Source: Haloarcula halobia (GTDB lineage Archaea; Halobacteriota; Halobacteria; Halobacteriales; Haloarculaceae). From it: a stretch of 64,000 nucleotides of DNA. Location: positions 1,860,001 to 1,924,000 of the forward strand of contig NZ_CP119787.1 of assembly GCF_029338255.1 (NCBI RefSeq). The letters run 5' to 3'. Position 1 is the stretch's first letter. Each line of letters begins with the position of its first letter. Shown piece after piece: positions 9,636 to 40,147 of the stretch. The notes beneath the pieces are model-generated. The model did not search any database. It saw only the letters and a list, made by a program, of their open reading frames with translations, and was not told where the DNA came from. Both the position numbers and the translations under genes were made by a program.

Positions 9636-10229
9636 CCGACCGACGCCACCCGAATCGTTTCCCACTCGTCGACTACATCGAGAGGTCCCGGTTACGAGAC
9701 GGTGGACCCGGACGGTCGACGACGCTGTCGCACGGGTACTCGACGACGAACGCCTCGAGAGGCGCGACGGCCTCCTCACGGGTGATTATCTCACCACGGA
9801 GGGACAGTCGCCGGCCGACGACCCGCGGGCAATCGATACCGCGGGTCTGGACCCGAACACCGAGGTACACGATTTCGACCCCGCCACCGCCCGGCGTCGG
9901 CCGACGACGAGGCGGGTCCCGAGACCGCTACCGGCACGGCAGGGAGCACGGCAGACGACTGACGGGGGGTCGGATCGGCGGTCGCCCTCCGTGACGGTTC
10001 CGGACAGCGGTCAGTCCGCTCACGAGACGCGTCGCTCGGCGAGGAGACACCAAAGGGAACTTTCGGGGGCGATGCCCCCGTAGCGTGTGACACTACGGAG
10101 CCTTCCGGCTCCACTTTCACTTTCAACGTCTGACGCAAAAAGTCTAACGTACGTTTCATCTGGAGATAATGGCAGAAACCCGTCAACGAGCCTAGTTCCG
10201 GCCCTCGGAAACGCAATCGAAATCGGGGC
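9636..10229. other. Gap with ambiguous open frames and hairpins
   Basis: There is no confident gene. On the plus strand one frame from about 9660 to 10080 reads like worn coding sequence (TVDDAVARVLDDERLERRDG, then GDYLTTEG) but has no clear start. On the minus strand a GTG-started frame (9870-9673) and an ATG-started frame (10159-9791; MKRTLDFLRQTLKVKVEPEG) are also open. The second has low-GC codons unlike its neighbours and dissolves into Arg/Pro/Ser-rich nonsense. Two hairpins lie at 10065-10082 (GGGGGC-GAT-GCCCCC) and 10096-10111 (GGAGCC-TTCC-GGCTCC). A decayed insertion is possible, but I recognise no family. Confidence 0.3.
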
Positions 10230-31828: not shown

Positions 31829-32881
31829 CTACATTTCGGGGACGCCGTCGCGGCCGACCAGGATCTCGTAGGCCTCGATGTCCTCGTAGGCAGCCACCTG
31901 GCCGCCGACGTCGACCATGCCGTCGTCCGTCTCGACGACGAGCGTCGCCACCTCGCGGTTCGAGCTGTAGGAGGCTTCGGCGACGCGCCCCTCGACGACC
32001 CAGTGGTCGCCCGTCTCGACGTCCCGGCCCTCGATGGTCGCGTAGAACTCGCCCTCCATGCTGCTCAGGTCGGAGATACACCGTCTGATGGTGCCGTAGC
32101 GTCGCGGGAAGGGGAGTCCGTCCCCGTCCGAGGAGATGGTGTCTGCCGTCGTCCACAGGACGGTGTTGAGGAACCCGGAGACCAGAAAGCCCAGTTCGGA
32201 CCGGTTGAAGATGACGCCGTAGCGGTCGGTGTCTCCCCGGACGCCCTCGCGGGTTGCGTACATCGAGTAGTTCCCGTCGGCGATGGCCACCACCGGCGTG
32301 GTGATCCCGCGCCGCCCTCGCACGGTGGTCGCGACGCTCTCGTAGTCGAACTCAGACTCGTCGGGGGCGTCGCGGGCCGGCGAGACGAGAATCTCGGTGG
32401 CGATACCCGCGTCGTGACGTCCCCGCAGGCGGTCCTCGAACCGGTGTAACAGCGAGGGCGTCAGCGACAGCATGAGCTCGTACTCGGCGGCGTCGATGAT
32501 GTCCTCGAGGTACCGGAGTATCGTCGGGCGGGACTTCACCAGCGACACCGCCTCCGGTTCGCGGGCCGGCGCGGTGTATCGCGCCGAGAGGCTGTCGACC
32601 AGGTCGTCGAGCGAGGACTGGATGTCGCCGAAGGCGTCCCGCGGGTCGATGGCCAGGACCTTCATCGGTCGCGTCTCCTTGAGCTCGACCAGGCCGACGT
32701 CGCTGAGGCTCCGGACGGTGTCGTAGACCCGGGGCTGTGGAATGTCGGTGTTCTCCGATATCTCGGAGGCGGTCAACTCGCCGTGCTGGAGCACGGCCAG
32801 GTACGCTGCGACCTCGTACTCGCCGAGGTTGAACCGTGAGATGACCTGTTCGAGGGCGGCCTCCAGGTCGTCGCTTGCCAT
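31829..32881 (-). CDS. TrmB-family sugar-responsive transcriptional regulator, copy 1
   Basis: A 350-residue TrmB-type protein. A winged HTH is at residues 15-80 (GEYEVAAYLAVLQHGELTAS, then EISENTDIPQPRVYDTVRSL), followed by a short coiled linker. The sugar-sensing domain follows (residues 110-250, EYELMLSLTPSLLHRFEDRL and IFNRSELGFLVSGFLNTVLW), then a C-terminal beta domain. TrmB proteins bind sugars and control sugar transporters or central carbon flow. It lies directly downstream of, and on the same strand as, the truncated transporter remnant at 32935, which suggests it was the dedicated regulator of a now deleted transporter. Confidence 0.88.
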   Translation of the reverse strand: MASDDLEAALEQVISRFNLGEYEVAAYLAVLQHGELTASEISENTDIPQPRVYDTVRSLSDVGLVELKETRPMKVLAIDPRDAFGDIQSSLDDLVDSLSARYTAPAREPEAVSLVKSRPTILRYLEDIIDAAEYELMLSLTPSLLHRFEDRLRGRHDAGIATEILVSPARDAPDESEFDYESVATTVRGRRGITTPVVAIADGNYSMYATREGVRGDTDRYGVIFNRSELGFLVSGFLNTVLWTTADTISSDGDGLPFPRRYGTIRRCISDLSSMEGEFYATIEGRDVETGDHWVVEGRVAEASYSSNREVATLVVETDDGMVDVGGQVAAYEDIEAYEILVGRDGVPEM

Positions 32882-32934: not shown

Positions 32935-33318
32935 CTAGAGGTCGGGCACGTCGGCCGCCGCAAGTTCGCGGTTGTGGAGCGCCTCGCCGGTCGCCCGGTC
33001 GAAGAGGTGGACCGCCGACTCCGGGAAGCCGGCGACGAGCCGCTGGTCCGCGTCGACGCTGCGCATCCCGTCGATGACGGCGGTAAACAGCGCGCTCTGC
33101 GCGGCGGGCGCACCCTCGAAGGCGAGGTGGACGACGTTCTCGTCGCCCTTCGACTCGACGACGTCGACCGGTGCGTGGTAGTCGTGGTCGCCGTCGCCGT
33201 CGTCACCGCCGCTGCCGCCGTCGCCGCCACACCCGTCGAGCGAAGCAGCTCCTGCAGCGCCCGCGATGCGAAGCGCGTTACGTCTCGATAGCCGCCTGTC
33301 AGAGGATTCGTCAGTCAT
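32935..33318 (-). pseudogene. In-frame fusion scar: sugar-binding protein start joined to sugar ABC ATPase end
   Basis: A 127-codon frame made of two unrelated ends. Residues 1-47 are the start of a Tat lipoprotein (RRNALRIAGAAGAASLDGCG, then a Gly/Asp linker), as in the sugar-binding protein encoded at 38588-40147. Residues 50-127 match the C-terminal OB/TOBE tail of a UgpC/MsmK-type ATPase: VESKGDENVVHLAFEG, LVAGFPESAVHLFDRATGEA, then LHNREL, compare HLFDTSTGEAIVH in the intact ATPase at 35320. The binding-protein core, both permeases and the ATPase nucleotide domain are missing. The simplest reading is a deletion inside a sugar ABC operon whose first and last genes were fused in frame. The remnant is unlikely to work, though it may still be expressed. 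Confidence 0.8.
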
Positions 33319-33566
33319 GAGTACAGCAATACCTCATCACTCCGTATTGATGATTCGAACTTAATACCGCGTATGACAACAGCACTCATTTTAGTTTCAG
33401 CGCCGAGAGCGAAACCGGCCGACACGTGGTCGACTGGTTCGCCGCCCGCCGAACGTGGCCGCCAGACCGTCCGGGAAACGACCCGGTCACGGTTGCCAAT
33501 CTATCGGCTGGCGGATAACTGGGTTCTCCGGTCCGCGACACCCACCGACCCGACCTGCGCGGGCAC

Positions 33567-34631
33567 TTACCGCGTGTCGAACTCCACGACGGCTTTGATC
33601 TGCTCGTCGCCGTCGACGAACGCCGGGTCGACGTTCTCGGGGCCGACCACCGTCGTCACGAGGTCCCCGAGCAGCGACTCGGGCATCTCGCCGAGCGTCT
33701 CGCGGGCCATCTCGAAGTGCTTGACGTGGGAGTTGACCGTGCCGATGAGACACTTGTTGTGGAGGACGATGTCGTTGTGGAGCGCGCCGCCGTCGATCTC
33801 GAACTCCCACGAGGCCGGGATGCCCAGCAGGGCACCGACGCCGTTCTGGGCGAGCGCGTGGACGGTCTGGACGGCGTGGGGGGCGAACCCGGTCGCCTCG
33901 TAGACGTAGTCCATCCCCTCGTAGTGCTCGGGGATCTCGTCGACGGGCGTCTGCCGCGAGTCGATGTACGTCGCCCCGAGGTCCTCGATGATGTCGACGG
34001 TCGGATCGGGCCGGTCCCGGCGCCCGACGCAGTAGGTCCGGTCGAACTCCTGACCGAGCATCCAGACGGTCAGGAGTCCGAGCGACCCGTTCCCCAGGAC
34101 ACAGGCGGCCTCGGGGCGCCACTCGAAGGGCTCCCGCGTGGCGAAGGCGTGTTCGGTGGCCTTGGCGGTAATCGAGATGGGTTCGACGAAGAAGCCGTAC
34201 TCGGCCAGTTCCTCGGGGAGCGGGACCAGAAAGTCCGCCGGCGAGGTGAAATACTCCGCCATGAACCCGTGTTCGCCGACGATGCCACGCTCGTGGTACT
34301 CGCCCTCCGGAGCCATGTCCGGTTCGCCGCGCCTGAAGAAGTCGTTCGTCTCGCCGTTGGGCTTTCGTCTGACCGTCGGCGCGACGACCTGGCCCTGTGT
34401 CAGTCCCGTCCCGTTGGGGTCCTCGACGACGCCGACGGCCTCGTGGCCCAGCACCATGTGGTCCTCGCCTTCTGGGTAGCCGCCGTGTTCGCCGCTGATG
34501 ACCTCGTGGTCGGTCCCGTCGACGCCGACTCTGAGCGTCCTGACCAGCGCCTCTCCGCGGTCGGGCGTCGGGCGTTCCTTCTCGACGAGCGCCGGCTCGG
34601 TCTCCCCCTTGCGGACCGCAATCGCTTTCAT
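33567..34631 (-). CDS. gdh: NADP-dependent glucose 1-dehydrogenase (zinc MDR family)
   Basis: A 354-residue medium-chain dehydrogenase that oxidises glucose to gluconolactone, the first step of the haloarchaeal semi-phosphorylative Entner-Doudoroff pathway. Zinc ligands match the Haloferax mediterranei enzyme at the same positions: Asp38 (VGVDGTDHEV), His63 and Glu64 (LGHEAVG), and Glu150 (FFVEPIS). The Rossmann motif is LGNGSLGLLTVWML and GRRDRP carries the basic residues expected for NADP. The start is the ATG at 34631. It lies between the transporter scar and the Gfo/Idh/MocA pseudogene. Confidence 0.95.
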   Translation of the reverse strand: MKAIAVRKGETEPALVEKERPTPDRGEALVRTLRVGVDGTDHEVISGEHGGYPEGEDHMVLGHEAVGVVEDPNGTGLTQGQVVAPTVRRKPNGETNDFFRRGEPDMAPEGEYHERGIVGEHGFMAEYFTSPADFLVPLPEELAEYGFFVEPISITAKATEHAFATREPFEWRPEAACVLGNGSLGLLTVWMLGQEFDRTYCVGRRDRPDPTVDIIEDLGATYIDSRQTPVDEIPEHYEGMDYVYEATGFAPHAVQTVHALAQNGVGALLGIPASWEFEIDGGALHNDIVLHNKCLIGTVNSHVKHFEMARETLGEMPESLLGDLVTTVVGPENVDPAFVDGDEQIKAVVEFDTR

Positions 34632-34687
34632 ACTGTTGAGAAGGTCAGACGCTACGGATTAAAGCTTTCTTCACTGCCACCGCGCCG

Positions 34688-35096
34688 TTACTCGATTCCG
34701 ACGGCGGCTCCGACCTCGACGAACCGTCGGGCCACGAGCCGAACTCTGAACGGGTGGTCTCCGGAACCTCGATTCCGTCCGGGTCGCCCAGCAGGTACCG
34801 CGAGAGGTCGATGGCGTGGACCCCGATGTCGATGAGCGTGTCCCCGCCGGCGAGGTCGGCCAGTGCGAACCACGACCAGCGGTTCGGGATGGCTCGCCGG
34901 CCAGGTCGTCGGTGAGTGGCTTCTGGACCAGCACGTCGAGGCAGGCCTCCAGTGCCGCGACGACGTACTCCTCGTGGTAGCGGTTCGGCGTCGTCACCCA
35001 GCCCCTGGCTCTCGAGTGCGTCACGGTGGCTGCGGGCGATGTCTCCGAGACCGACGATTCCGAGGCTGACCGTAGACGGGTCTGTCGTGTGTGCAT
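34688..35096 (-). pseudogene. Degenerate Gfo/Idh/MocA-family oxidoreductase
   Basis: Conserved pieces of a Gfo/Idh/MocA enzyme lie in order but in different frames. The N-terminal Rossmann strand reads VSLGIVGLGDIARSHRDALE in one frame. TTPNRYHEEYVVAALEACLD and VLVQKPLTDDLA (the EKP-type motif, here QKP) read in another. Then GDTLIDIGVHAIDLSRYLLG returns in the first frame, and FVEVGAAVGIE ends in a third at 34688. The whole span is about 410 bp against about 1,100 bp for an intact gene such as the one at 48839-49948, so frameshifts and internal deletions are both present. It would have oxidised a sugar or sugar acid. Confidence 0.8.
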
Positions 35097-35319: not shown

Positions 35320-36516
35320 TCAATCGTCGGATTCGACCTCGCCGCCGGTCGCCGGTCCGGCCGCTTCGATTGGCTCGAGTGCGTGGACGATGGCCTCGCC
35401 GGTCGAGGTATCGAACAGGTGGGTGTTGTGCCGGTCGATGACGACCTGGATGTCCTCTTCCTCCTCGATGTCGGAGTCGGGGTCGATGCTCATCAGCAAC
35501 TGGTCGTCCGTCGCCACCTCCTGGGACATCGACGTCTCGCCCTCGCCCAGCAGCAGGTAGGCGAATATCTCGTCGCCCATCGGTTCGAGCACGTCCGACC
35601 GGGCGTCGATGGGCTCACTCGGGTCCGCGACCTCCTCAGCCAGGGACGCCGGGTAGATGTCCTCCGGCCGAACCCCCAGCGTCAGCTGGTCGCCGACGCC
35701 GACACCCTCGACGGTCGAGGGGTCGAAGTTCAGCGAAAAGTTCTCGGAGACGAGCTCGCTTTCGGTGACTTCGGCCTCGACGAAGTTCATCGCCGGCGAG
35801 CCGATGAAGCCGGCGACGAACAGGTTGTCCGGTTCGTTGTAGCAAGTCAGTGGCGGGGCGATCTGCTGGAGGCTGCCGGCGTTGAGCACGGCGATGCGGT
35901 CGGACATCGTCATCGCCTCCTCCTGGTCGTGGGTGACGTAGATGATGGTTGTGTCCAGTTCCTTGTGCAGGCGCTGGAGCTCGGTCCGCATGTGGACTTT
36001 CAGCTTTGCGTCTAAGTTCGCCAGCGGCTCGTCCATCAGGAAAACGTCCGGTTCGCGGACGATCGCGCGTGCGATGGCGACGCGCTGGCGCTGCCCGCCG
36101 GACATCTCCTCGGGCATCCGCCCGAGCATCCCCTCCAGCTGGACGATGTCGGCCGCGTGCTCGACGCGGCGGTCGATCTCGTCCTGCGGGTAGTCCCGCA
36201 GCCGGAGGCCAAAGGAGATGTTGTCGTAGACGTCCATGTGCGGGAACAGCGCGATGTTCTGGAACACCATCGCGATGCCCCGGTCTTTGGGCGGGAGGTT
36301 CGTCACCTCGCGGTCGCCGATGTAGACCTCGCCCTCCGTCGGGATGGTCAGGCCGGCGATGGTCTCCATCGTGGTCGACTTCCCACAGCCCGACGGCCCG
36401 ACGAAGCAGACGAACTCGCCGTCCTTGATATCGAGGTTCATGTCGTCGACCGCGGTGACTACCTCACCCTGGTCGTCGTAGCGTTTCGTGACGTGTTCGA
36501 GTCTGACTCGTGCCAT
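35320..36516 (-). CDS. Sugar ABC transporter ATP-binding protein (UgpC/MsmK/MalK-like)
   Basis: A 398-residue ATPase with Walker A GPSGCGKST, Q-loop FQNIALFPHMDV, signature MSGGQRQR, Walker B VFLMDEP and switch THDQEEAM. The C-terminal OB/TOBE domain (residues 240-390) includes LGVRPEDIYPA and ends HLFDTSTGEAIVH plus an acidic tail. It energises the two permeases encoded upstream. It starts 7 bp after the permease stop and is followed within a few bases by the small membrane protein. Confidence 0.94.
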   Translation of the reverse strand: MARVRLEHVTKRYDDQGEVVTAVDDMNLDIKDGEFVCFVGPSGCGKSTTMETIAGLTIPTEGEVYIGDREVTNLPPKDRGIAMVFQNIALFPHMDVYDNISFGLRLRDYPQDEIDRRVEHAADIVQLEGMLGRMPEEMSGGQRQRVAIARAIVREPDVFLMDEPLANLDAKLKVHMRTELQRLHKELDTTIIYVTHDQEEAMTMSDRIAVLNAGSLQQIAPPLTCYNEPDNLFVAGFIGSPAMNFVEAEVTESELVSENFSLNFDPSTVEGVGVGDQLTLGVRPEDIYPASLAEEVADPSEPIDARSDVLEPMGDEIFAYLLLGEGETSMSQEVATDDQLLMSIDPDSDIEEEEDIQVVIDRHNTHLFDTSTGEAIVHALEPIEAAGPATGGEVESDD

Positions 36517-36523
36517 TGTTGTA

Positions 36524-37513
36524 TTACTCCTTGAGTGCTCCTGAGGTCAGTCCGCTGACGATCCGTTCCTGGGCGACGACCACGAGGATGACGACGGGGA
36601 GCACCCCGACGACGCTCGCGGCGGCCATCAGATTGAACTGCGTGGTGTACTGCGTCTGGTAACTGAGTATCCCGCCGACAATGGGCGACCACTTCCCGGG
36701 ATCCGGCGACGTCGCCATGATCGAACTGAAGAAGTACTCGTTGTAGACGGCGATGAACGTCAGCACGGCCGCCGTCGCCACGCCGGGGGCCGACAGCGGC
36801 ATGATGACGCGGAACAGCGCGCCGAGGCGCGTCGTCCCTTCGACCCGCGCCGCGTCCTCCAGTCCGTCGGGAATCTGCCCGTAGAACGTCGTGAGGATGA
36901 ACACCGACAGCGGCATGAACAGCGCGCTGAACGGCAGCACCATCGACCCCGGCGTGTTCAGTAGTCGGGGCGGCGTGAACAGCGGAATCTCCGTGAACGG
37001 AATCGTGATCGGCGCGTTCGCAGCGAACGCCTGGAACAGTGGGATGACGAACGCGGCGGGCGGGAAGTAGCTGATCGCCAGGATGCCCAGCATCAGCACG
37101 GCCCGGCCCGGGAAGCGGAGTCGTCCGAAGACGTAGCCGGCCAGACTCGCGACCAGGAGCACGATGACCGTCGTCGAGACGGCGAGCGCGAAACTGTTCA
37201 GCATGTACAGGTGGAACGGAACCTGTTCGAAGACAGTGATGAACGCCGCCGGATTGAACCCCTTCGGCGTCGGCAGCGGGAACGTGAATCCAGCCACCTG
37301 TGGCAGGAAACTCCCGGCCAGCAGGTTCCCTTCAGGGGTGACCGCGAGGACGATCAACCAGTAGAAGGGGAACAGCGTCGTCACCAGGAAGAACACCATC
37401 GCCGCGTAGAACAGCGCCCGGTACACCTTCTCCGGGTTGGCGATCGCGTCCTGTGTCCACCGGGCGAGCGGTCCGCCTTCGTCGTCGGAGTCTTTGTCTG
37501 TCGCTGTCGCCAT
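36524..37513 (-). CDS. Sugar ABC transporter permease, MalG-type
   Basis: A 329-residue inner-membrane permease with six predicted helices. The EAA loop (DGLEDAARVEGTTRLGALFR, then VIMPLSAPG) docks the ATPase. An insertion in the third periplasmic loop (PITIPFTEIPLFTPPRLLNT) is not seen in bacterial MalG; I have no function for it. The start ATG at 37513 is one base after the MalF-type gene stop at 37515. Confidence 0.93.
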   Translation of the reverse strand: MATATDKDSDDEGGPLARWTQDAIANPEKVYRALFYAAMVFFLVTTLFPFYWLIVLAVTPEGNLLAGSFLPQVAGFTFPLPTPKGFNPAAFITVFEQVPFHLYMLNSFALAVSTTVIVLLVASLAGYVFGRLRFPGRAVLMLGILAISYFPPAAFVIPLFQAFAANAPITIPFTEIPLFTPPRLLNTPGSMVLPFSALFMPLSVFILTTFYGQIPDGLEDAARVEGTTRLGALFRVIMPLSAPGVATAAVLTFIAVYNEYFFSSIMATSPDPGKWSPIVGGILSYQTQYTTQFNLMAAASVVGVLPVVILVVVAQERIVSGLTSGALKE

Positions 37514-37514
37514 A

Positions 37515-38501
37515 TCAGATCGCGTCCTCCCCTTGCCACACGATGAGTCCCATTACCGCGGCACCGATGATGGCGGCCGTGACGAAAGCGATGGCTGCTG
37601 ACGTCCCCTCTCGCGTGTTGAACGTCGCGACGACCATACACGAGAGCGAGGGGACGACCGAACACTTCGACACCGTGTCGATGATACCGTAGACCCGCAT
37701 CGCCTGCACCGAGCGGAACAGCACCGCGATGCCGATGGTCGGCAGGATGAGCGGGAACGTGATCAGTTTGAACTGCTGCCACTTCGTGGCACCGGCGACC
37801 TTCGCGACGTCGTAGAGGCCGCGGTCGATGCTCTGGAGGCCGGCCAGTATCAGCAGCGCCATGAACGCCGACGTCTTCCAGATGTCGGCGACGATGATGA
37901 TAAAGAGTGAACTCGCCGGGTCGTTGAGCGTGTTCGTCGGTGCCAGGATGCCCAGGTCGGCAAGCGGCGGCGTGAGGAACCCGATGTTCGAGTTGAACAT
38001 CAGGAAGAAGATCATCCCCTGGATGACGACCGGGACCGCCCACGGGATGATGATGGCCGCGCGGATCCACTTTCGCCCGTAGAAGTCCTGGTCGAGGATG
38101 AGCGCCTGTCCGAGGCCAATGACGGTCTCGAAGAGGACGCTCACCACCGAGAAGATGATCGTCACCACGAGCGCGCTCGTGATGAGTGCTTCGAGCGCGA
38201 GGCTCCCCGGCAGGAAGTTCGTATCGCCCGGCAGGAAGACGTCTTTCCCTCCGGTGAACAGTTCCACGTAGTTCCCGAGGCCGACGAACGTAGTGCTCGA
38301 GAAGTCGGCCGAGACTTCGAACAACGAGAGCTCGAAGGTCCGGAGCAGCGGATACAGCGCGACGACGCCGAGCAGGATGAAGACGGGAATCAGGAGCAGA
38401 TACGCGTACTGCGTGTCGCTCAGGTTCTCCATCCAGCGCATCGCGTCGACGAGGACTCCCGACCGGCGTGATTCACGCTCTCCTGCGGTGTCCGTGCTCA
38501 T
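37515..38501 (-). CDS. Sugar ABC transporter permease, MalF-type
   Basis: A 328-residue permease from MSTDTAGERESRRSGVLVDA. Six or seven helices; the EAA loop is IDRGLYDVAKVAGATKWQQF, then KLITFPLILPT. A large extracytoplasmic loop between helices 2 and 3 (FVGLGNYVELFTGGKDVFLP) is typical of MalF-like subunits. An ATG ten codons upstream (38531) is possible. The stop falls just before the MalG-type start, and the binding-protein gene lies 57-86 bp upstream on the same strand. Confidence 0.92.
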   Translation of the reverse strand: MSTDTAGERESRRSGVLVDAMRWMENLSDTQYAYLLLIPVFILLGVVALYPLLRTFELSLFEVSADFSSTTFVGLGNYVELFTGGKDVFLPGDTNFLPGSLALEALITSALVVTIIFSVVSVLFETVIGLGQALILDQDFYGRKWIRAAIIIPWAVPVVIQGMIFFLMFNSNIGFLTPPLADLGILAPTNTLNDPASSLFIIIVADIWKTSAFMALLILAGLQSIDRGLYDVAKVAGATKWQQFKLITFPLILPTIGIAVLFRSVQAMRVYGIIDTVSKCSVVPSLSCMVVATFNTREGTSAAIAFVTAAIIGAAVMGLIVWQGEDAI

Positions 38502-38587
38502 GTCCCTCTGTCCCTCCTCGTGATTGTCCACTCCATAACCAATAATAACTTAGGATTGTTTTAAAACTAGCCCACCTGCCAACTAGG

Positions 38588-40147
38588 TTATGAGTTTTCG
38601 ATATTGGACAGACTCTCTGCCAGGGTATTCATAGCCTGCTCCGAGGTGACATCTTGGCCGACCGCGGTGTTGGCCTGTTGTGCGATGTTGGACGACTCCT
38701 GGCTCCAGACCGCGGTGACCGGGCGTGCCAGCGAGTTTTGACCGGCGACCTGCAGGGTGTCCATGTAGCGGCCGACGACCGGAACGTTCGCCGCTTCGTC
38801 GGACGAGAACAGTTCGGGCCGCGGCGGCAGCCAGCCCTGAATCTCGAGCAGAGTTAGCTGGAAATCCGGTTGCATGGCGGCCCGGATGACCTCGGTGACA
38901 CCGTCTTTCGCCTGGCTGCTGGGGTTGACTGTCATGTGCCAGCCACCGAGTGCGGAGGTGGTGCCGCCGACGCCCTGTTGTGCGGCCTCGGACTCCGGAA
39001 CGGCGTACGGAATCGGCATCGCGCCGAGGTCCTCGCCGAGGGCTGGATCCTCCGTCTCCTCCGGATTCCGACCGGTGAGTGCGAGCGAGTACGGCCAGTT
39101 GCGGTGCATGACCGCGTTGCCGTTCGCGAACGGAGCACGCGAGGGCTCTTCCGTGTAGCCCAGAATCTCGGTCGGGACGATGTCGCCGGCGTAGCCCTCG
39201 AACTGCCCGCCGAAGTCCTCGTCGTGGACGAACTTCCGCATCATGTTGAGCGAGTTGATCGTCTCTGGCTCGTTGACCGTGATGGGTCGGTCGCCGACCG
39301 GGCCGAAGAGGTTGTCCCGACCGCCGAAGTAGGCGCCGCCCCACGAGGACATGACTTCGTTGAACGTACAGCAGGAGGTCCCCTCGTAGATGTCCCACTG
39401 GACGGTCCAGCCCATGTCGACGTCGGCGTTGTCCAGCGTGTCCGCGGTGATGTTCGACCACTCCTCCCAGGTCATCGGCTCGGTAGCCCAGTTGTTGGAC
39501 TCGGGGCTGTAGCCGGCTTCCTCGACGAGGTCCTTGCGGTATTGCATCGTCGGGAAGTCGGGGAAGACCGGGACCCCGAAGAGGTTCCCGCTGGACGGGT
39601 CGATTGCCGTCTCGGTGAACCCGCTGAAGTAGTTGTTCTCGACGTCGTCGAGCAGTTCCTTGGGGAGCAGCTCCGTCAGGTTCTGGATCTGTCCGCGCTG
39701 GATGAAGATGTTCGTCCAGCCGTTGTCCATCAGGAACATGTCCGGGTCCGTCTCGTCCGCGCTCAGGAGGCGGTTGTAGTTGGACCGTCGCGCGCCGGTG
39801 TCCTGGTCGCCCGCGACGAACTCGACCTCGACGTTGTCCGGCAGGCCGTTGTCGCGAAGCGCCTGCTTGATCGCGTCGCCGTTGTTCTGGACTGCGACCG
39901 GGTCGAAGCCCCATGTGACGGTGGTCGTCTCGCCGCTGCCACCGTCACCGGAGCTGCCACCGCCGCCGTCGCCACCATCCCCACCGGAACCGCCGTCGCC
40001 GCCGGAACCGCCGTCACCACCGCTGCCGCCGTCGCCCGCACAGCCAGCGATACCCGCTGCCACGCCAGTCGCCCCGGCGGCCTGCACGAACCGTCGCCGC
40101 GAGACGCCTGTCGATGTACTGTCGCCTGTGGTGTCGTTGTCCGACAT
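38588..40147 (-). CDS. Sugar ABC transporter substrate-binding lipoprotein
   Basis: A 519-residue family 1 extracellular solute-binding protein. A Tat signal (VSRRRFVQAAGATGVAAGIA, residues 15-34) ends in lipobox AGC, then a long Gly/Asp/Ser linker of GGSGGDGG repeats (residues 37-74) tethers the domain. The mature domain holds ETTTVTWGFDPVAVQNNG and a hinge region typical of oligosaccharide binders. The exact sugar is unknown; the neighbouring glucan enzymes suggest glucose or malto-oligosaccharides. The promoter has a TATA (TTTAAGT, minus strand, 40174-40180) and, just upstream of it, a palindrome shared with the trmB copy 2 promoter. Confidence 0.93.
   Translation of the reverse strand: MSDNDTTGDSTSTGVSRRRFVQAAGATGVAAGIAGCAGDGGSGGDGGSGGDGGSGGDGGDGGGGSSGDGGSGETTTVTWGFDPVAVQNNGDAIKQALRDNGLPDNVEVEFVAGDQDTGARRSNYNRLLSADETDPDMFLMDNGWTNIFIQRGQIQNLTELLPKELLDDVENNYFSGFTETAIDPSSGNLFGVPVFPDFPTMQYRKDLVEEAGYSPESNNWATEPMTWEEWSNITADTLDNADVDMGWTVQWDIYEGTSCCTFNEVMSSWGGAYFGGRDNLFGPVGDRPITVNEPETINSLNMMRKFVHDEDFGGQFEGYAGDIVPTEILGYTEEPSRAPFANGNAVMHRNWPYSLALTGRNPEETEDPALGEDLGAMPIPYAVPESEAAQQGVGGTTSALGGWHMTVNPSSQAKDGVTEVIRAAMQPDFQLTLLEIQGWLPPRPELFSSDEAANVPVVGRYMDTLQVAGQNSLARPVTAVWSQESSNIAQQANTAVGQDVTSEQAMNTLAESLSNIENS

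Follow-up and report, generated by a model that had tools for sequence, protein, structure and literature searches.

An in-frame deletion scar between gdh and trmB in a Haloarcula genome and its probable link to a split sugar transporter

The open reading frame of 127 residues lying between gdh and trmB in Haloarcula halobia, found in a window of 64,000 nucleotides which is the whole stretch of DNA analysed here, is in all likelihood the scar of an in-frame deletion of ~2.3 kb which took place within the Haloarcula/Halomicroarcula group and which probably removed half of a split GlcSTUV-like transporter that was lost whole. As a gene the fusion is an ordinary deletion scar; as evidence for a split, jointly lost sugar transporter it is moderately interesting.

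Results

Composition of the fusion

The frame, whose translation begins MTDESSDRRLSRRNALRIAGAAGAASLDGCGGDGGSGGDDGDGDHDYHAPVDVVESKGDENVV, is made of two unequal parts (Table 1): codons 1 to ~41 come from the N-terminal end of a Tat/lipobox sugar-binding protein (SBP1) and codons 42-127 from the C-terminal end of a MalK-type ATPase (malK1), with the peptide GSGGDDGDGDHDYHAPVDVVESK spanning the junction. In the sister genome, Halomicroarcula sp. SYNS111 (G013; NZ_CP119794.1), the two halves are two adjacent genes. Residues 1-44 of the fusion are 91% identical to the start of the sister's 462-aa SBP1 (97% over residues 1-34), a protein recognized as SBP_bac_8 (E 5.4e-19) with GlcS as its nearest named family, and residues 42-127 are 93% identical to the C-terminal part of the sister MalK ATPase. 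A first-pass annotation of the window had described a lipoprotein head joined to an ABC ATPase tail; this description holds, with the boundary moved from codon 47 to codons 41-43. The only Pfam domains found in the fusion were TAT_signal (residues 10-27) and TOBE_2 (residues 44-106), both sub-threshold, and a search of its own genome returned partial relatives only, namely SBP heads and MalK tails.

No full-length match to the fusion was found in 60 relatives or in 391 members of the class, and among ~390 haloarchaeal genomes it is unique to the window genome. A conserved small gene family, the alternative that had been named beforehand as fatal to a fusion, is ruled out by the lack of any 127-residue homologue in the ~390 others.

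Table 1. Features of the gdh-trmB region and of the remote locus. Positions are those of the window unless a contig is given.
Feature	Position	Strand	Description and evidence
trmB regulator	31829..32881	-	Intact; 53 bp downstream of the fusion; likely orthologue of Har. hispanica HAH_1548; PF11495, E 1.2e-67
Fusion ORF	32935..33318	-	127 aa; SBP1 head and malK1 tail
malK1-derived part	32938..33195	-	Last 86 codons, end of OB/TOBE regulatory domain; 93% identity to sister malK1
Deletion junction	33186..33206	-	8-bp repeat CGACGGCG common to malK1 side and SBP1 linker
SBP1-derived part	33196..33318	-	Tat signal, mutated lipobox LDGC, start of Gly/Asp/Ser linker; 91-97% identity to sister SBP1 N-terminus; 24 relatives aligned
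SBP1 promoter and ribosome-binding region	33319..33400	-	Conserved (TATTAAG box, GATGAGGTA); kept upstream of the fusion; 25-genome alignment
gdh, glucose dehydrogenase	33567..34631	-	Intact; PF16912, E 7.4e-91
gfo (Gfo/Idh/MocA oxidoreductase) pseudogene	34671..35096	-	Three internal deletions: 391, 157 and 122 bp
Paralogous sugar ABC operon	35320..40147	-	SBP2, permF2, permG2, malK2; intact; SBP, two permeases, ATPase
Remnant of remote permF-permG-malK1b block	~G000:C1:1603376-1604898 (L176 13376-14898)		Window genome

Ancestral order of the gdh-trmB locus

The interval between gdh and trmB was read in 31 genomes of the genus, the window genome included, together with the gdh region of two outgroups. 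The order gdh-SBP1-malK1-trmB, hereafter the dyad, was found in nine of the 31, among them the sister, and gdh-SBP1-trmB in 15; six genomes have neither SBP1 nor malK1 in the interval, and the fusion occurs there in the window genome alone. A tree of gdh and trmB places the window genome as sister to G013, a dyad genome, and groups all six species that lack SBP1 in a single clade. From the survey and the tree together, the fusion is therefore a derived state that arose by deletion. It is confined to one lineage and its halves come from two genes which stand separate at the same place in relatives, so that the suggestion of an in-frame deletion scar is borne out by the intact SBP1-malK1 pair of nine congeners.

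What was deleted differs from what had been proposed. The transporter permeases taken as queries gave no match inside the interval in any of the 31 genomes; the lost piece was the two-gene SBP1-malK1 cassette rather than a full operon with permeases between its ends. The recommended comparison with related genomes thus recovered SBP1-malK1 in nine congeners and permeases in none. That the immediate ancestor had lost permeases at this place was considered and rejected, since no congener carries them there. In Halorussus, SBP, permF, permG and malK form one operon (51% identity for SBP1 and 69% for malK1).

One reservation about the deletion account is that malK1 of the sister carries frameshifts of its own, which may be real or a sequencing error; because the sister permG2 is frameshifted too and that genome is 90% complete, they are no more than a possible sign of malK1 decay prior to the deletion. 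The neighbours identified in the first-pass annotation, TrmB, gdh and an intact paralogous operon, were all confirmed (Table 1). The proteins of the paralogous operon are not close to the lost SBP1 system. The gfo gene is intact in the sister (356 aa), with a match at the same place in the other congeners read.

Deletion junction

At the junction 2,287 bp of sister sequence are missing. The malK1 tail can be followed from the left to ~33196 and the SBP1 linker is matched on the right from ~33198; the longest repeat found both on the malK1 side and in the linker is the 8 bp of CGACGGCG, a direct repeat found at both ends of the missing piece and kept in one copy. Repeats of at least 8 bp at that spacing occur in 5e-4 of random pairs, a null which overstates the surprise because the linker is repetitive and GC-rich. 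The position of the repeat within the linker agrees with the earlier proposal that the Gly/Asp linker DNA helped the recombination. Almost the whole of SBP1 was lost in the event, together with three quarters of malK1 counted from its start. The most likely mechanism is joining or slippage at the short direct repeat that the Gly/Asp linker has in common with malK1, slippage being as possible a route as end joining. The malK1 frame was computed to stay open in 33% of random SBP1-malK1 deletions; an open frame therefore needs no selection, as about one in three such deletions would leave it.

A remote permease locus

For the first permease of the Halorussus operon, 9/9 dyad genomes give a match of 61-65% and the window genome only one of 24%, and permF is present at 77-78% identity to the G013 protein in all 15 of the SBP1-only genomes. 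The block permF-permG-malK1b was read in seven SBP1-bearing species (G013, G001, G014, G027, G015, G004 and G003), in which the permeases lie at a distant locus beside a second ATPase (malK1b); no SBP-like match was found next to the block in the seven loci read. Among the SBP1-less species, permF was found in none of G002, G010 and G024 (the last only 80% complete), and a copy at 61% occurs in G007, G008 and G025. In G008 and G025 that copy is part of a divergent SBP-permF-permG-malK operon which is complete, an SBP of its own included (L183 4047-8432; L184 4122-8586).

Only a remnant of the remote block is left in the window genome: a deletion of 1,846 bp has taken permF together with the front half of permG, and malK1b carries a frameshift. 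The nearest named families are GlcS for SBP1, GlcT for permF and GlcU for permG, at scores which fall below the NCBIfam equivalog cut-offs (76 of 500, 116 of 360 and 141 of 340 bits, respectively). SBP1 and the remote permF-permG co-occur across the genus and both are lost in the window genome, the simplest reading of which is a single transporter built from two loci; independent support for the SBP1-permF link amounts to about two co-losses, one in a clade and one in the window genome. SBP1-malK1 would accordingly be half of a GlcSTUV-like sugar transporter encoded in two places, with permF-permG and the second ATPase elsewhere on the chromosome, and with the other half also dead in the window species the fusion would reflect loss of the whole. 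It seems reasonably probable that the Haloarcula group has a CUT1-type sugar transporter in two unlinked halves which are inherited and lost jointly, and that the fusion is a fossil of such a joint loss; the binding protein half, with or without an ATPase, would lie at gdh-trmB and the permease pair and ATPase half elsewhere.

The deletion could instead stand alone, if SBP1-malK1 had been a redundant helper of SBP2/permF2/permG2/malK2 and the remote permeases had decayed for unrelated reasons, and the paralogous operon does lie just upstream in all relatives read there. We consider this unlikely: the nearest relatives of SBP1 and malK1 are in the Halorussus operon, the permeases of that operon match the remote permF-permG at ~53-65% as opposed to 22-25% for permF2/permG2, and the joint occurrence of permF and SBP1 across the genus also speaks against it.

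Fate of the fusion product

The region upstream of the fusion is well conserved with the sister, which counts against a dead scar, and transcription of the fusion is likely because the promoter box and ribosome-binding region are kept. The twin-arginine motif (SRRNAL) is also kept, as the first-pass annotation had noted, whilst the lipobox it described is no longer canonical: LAGC in 24/24 intact SBP1 relatives, it is LDGC in the fusion. Asp at position -2 is excluded by the standard lipobox pattern (PROSITE PS51257). The fusion has in addition exchanged P for S at a column invariant in 9/9 relatives, and AlphaFold2 (15 sequences) gave a pLDDT of 42.5 and a pTM of 0.20.

A young functional gene, encoding a small Tat-exported lipoprotein under selection, would be compatible with the retained promoter and start region and with the open frame. 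It would also be compatible with the dN/dS against the sister, which is 0.12 for the head and 0.27 for the tail, the latter from 8 synonymous and 7 non-synonymous differences, few changes of which most possibly predate the deletion; comparison values are 0.12 for gdh, 0.06 for trmB and 0.25 for malK2. A tail value that is not near 1 counts against a scar, and could mean a recent deletion or some constraint on the tail. However, low dN/dS is to be expected if most of the divergence is older than the deletion, what is left of malK1 covers no more than the end of the MalK regulatory domain and is predicted to fold poorly, the -2 residue of the lipobox is now Asp, and the frame exists in one genome only. 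A selected new lipoprotein, as had been suggested, thus seems very unlikely in view of the A to D change in the lipobox, the altered invariant proline, the low pLDDT and the one-in-three chance of an open frame. The deletion scar being preferred, the retained SBP1 promoter may still drive production of a peptide, which is probably non-functional. Judging from the sequence, the 53-bp gap between fusion and trmB would allow read-through into trmB, and the open frame may matter only in leaving expression of the downstream trmB undisturbed.

Other deletions in the window genome

The comparison with the sister and an outgroup covered approximately 400 kb, and the deletions claimed are those of bioB, SBP1-malK1, gfo and the remote permF-permG only; most larger gaps were not cleanly assigned by the outgroup because tblastx coverage is uninformative in GC-rich DNA. 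Two of the three gfo deletions have end repeats, of 10 bp (gfo2) and 6 bp (gfo3), and no clear end repeat was found for the first (gfo1) or for the remote permF-permG deletion. A remnant of bioB (biotin synthase) lies at window ~9688-9870 (+), with an 828-bp deletion at ~9770 and a 9-bp repeat, GACGGCCTC. The gene is intact in the sister and matched in 20/20 other congeners searched (one of them partially, in an incomplete genome), and bioB was not found in the window genome; the organism may therefore need external biotin. At G000:C1:1803639 some 26.5 kb of the sister are missing from the window genome, with an 11-bp end repeat, TCGCCGGACCG, and the sister has ~1.4 kb extra (G013:C1:271726-273157) relative to window ~19283, which from its end sequence alone is possibly an insertion sequence.

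That the fusion is an assembly artefact of the deposited genome, a collapsed repeat, is extremely unlikely: several deletions are indeed clustered, but the joined sequence has substitutions of its own on both sides, separate deletions and frameshifts have worn down gfo and the remote permG-malK1b as genuine decay would, and the assembly is 99.97% complete in two contigs.

Discussion

The fusion points to a probable partner for the permease-less SBP of the Haloarcula gdh-trmB locus, a locus studied for sugar sensing, and the split transporter that it suggests is a testable candidate for sugar uptake in Haloarcula. The deletions in the window also provide natural cases of short-repeat deletion in a haloarchaeal chromosome. 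In Haloferax volcanii, breaks are repaired by Ku-independent end joining at repeats of 3-5 bp, giving deletions of 6-977 bp (PMC2700283; PMC7521656), and strong self-targeting leads to microhomology deletions in Haloferax (PMC7521656). The window deletions resemble these in having short direct repeats at their ends (PMC2700283; PMC7521656); however, the experimental repeats of 3-5 bp compare with 8 bp for the fusion, 9 for bioB, and 10 and 6 for gfo, and the deletions described here are natural, not induced, with slippage and single-strand annealing indistinguishable in them.

The archaeal glucose ABC transporter GlcSTUV (NCBIfam NF040930, NF040931 and NF040932) supplies the nearest named families of SBP1, permF and permG. 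The Haloarcula-group proteins differ from it in scoring far under the curated cut-offs and in being encoded at two loci, and it is the gdh/trmB context that suggests a link to glucose. The gdh-trmB locus corresponds to a region with the same arrangement in Haloarcula hispanica where, according to the parts of the published account available to us, the trmB locus extends from HAH_1548 to HAH_1557, TrmB controls gluconeogenesis, and trmB is a neighbour of gdh and of genes for a carbohydrate ABC transporter, which is flanked by a second TrmB (PMC10817205). Those parts do not discuss the SBP gene beside trmB or its separated permeases (PMC10817205), and no literature naming the Har. hispanica SBP gene of the gdh-trmB locus was found. 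The window species differs from Har. hispanica in carrying the fusion and a broken gfo.

The complete system has a parallel in the SBP-permF-permG-malK operon of Halorussus (L077, L079), which has the same four components in the order that the first-pass annotation had assumed, with SBP first, ATPase last and the permeases between. That order therefore holds for Halorussus; the scar's direct ancestor did not have it and was without permeases at gdh-trmB, the components being split in the Haloarcula group.
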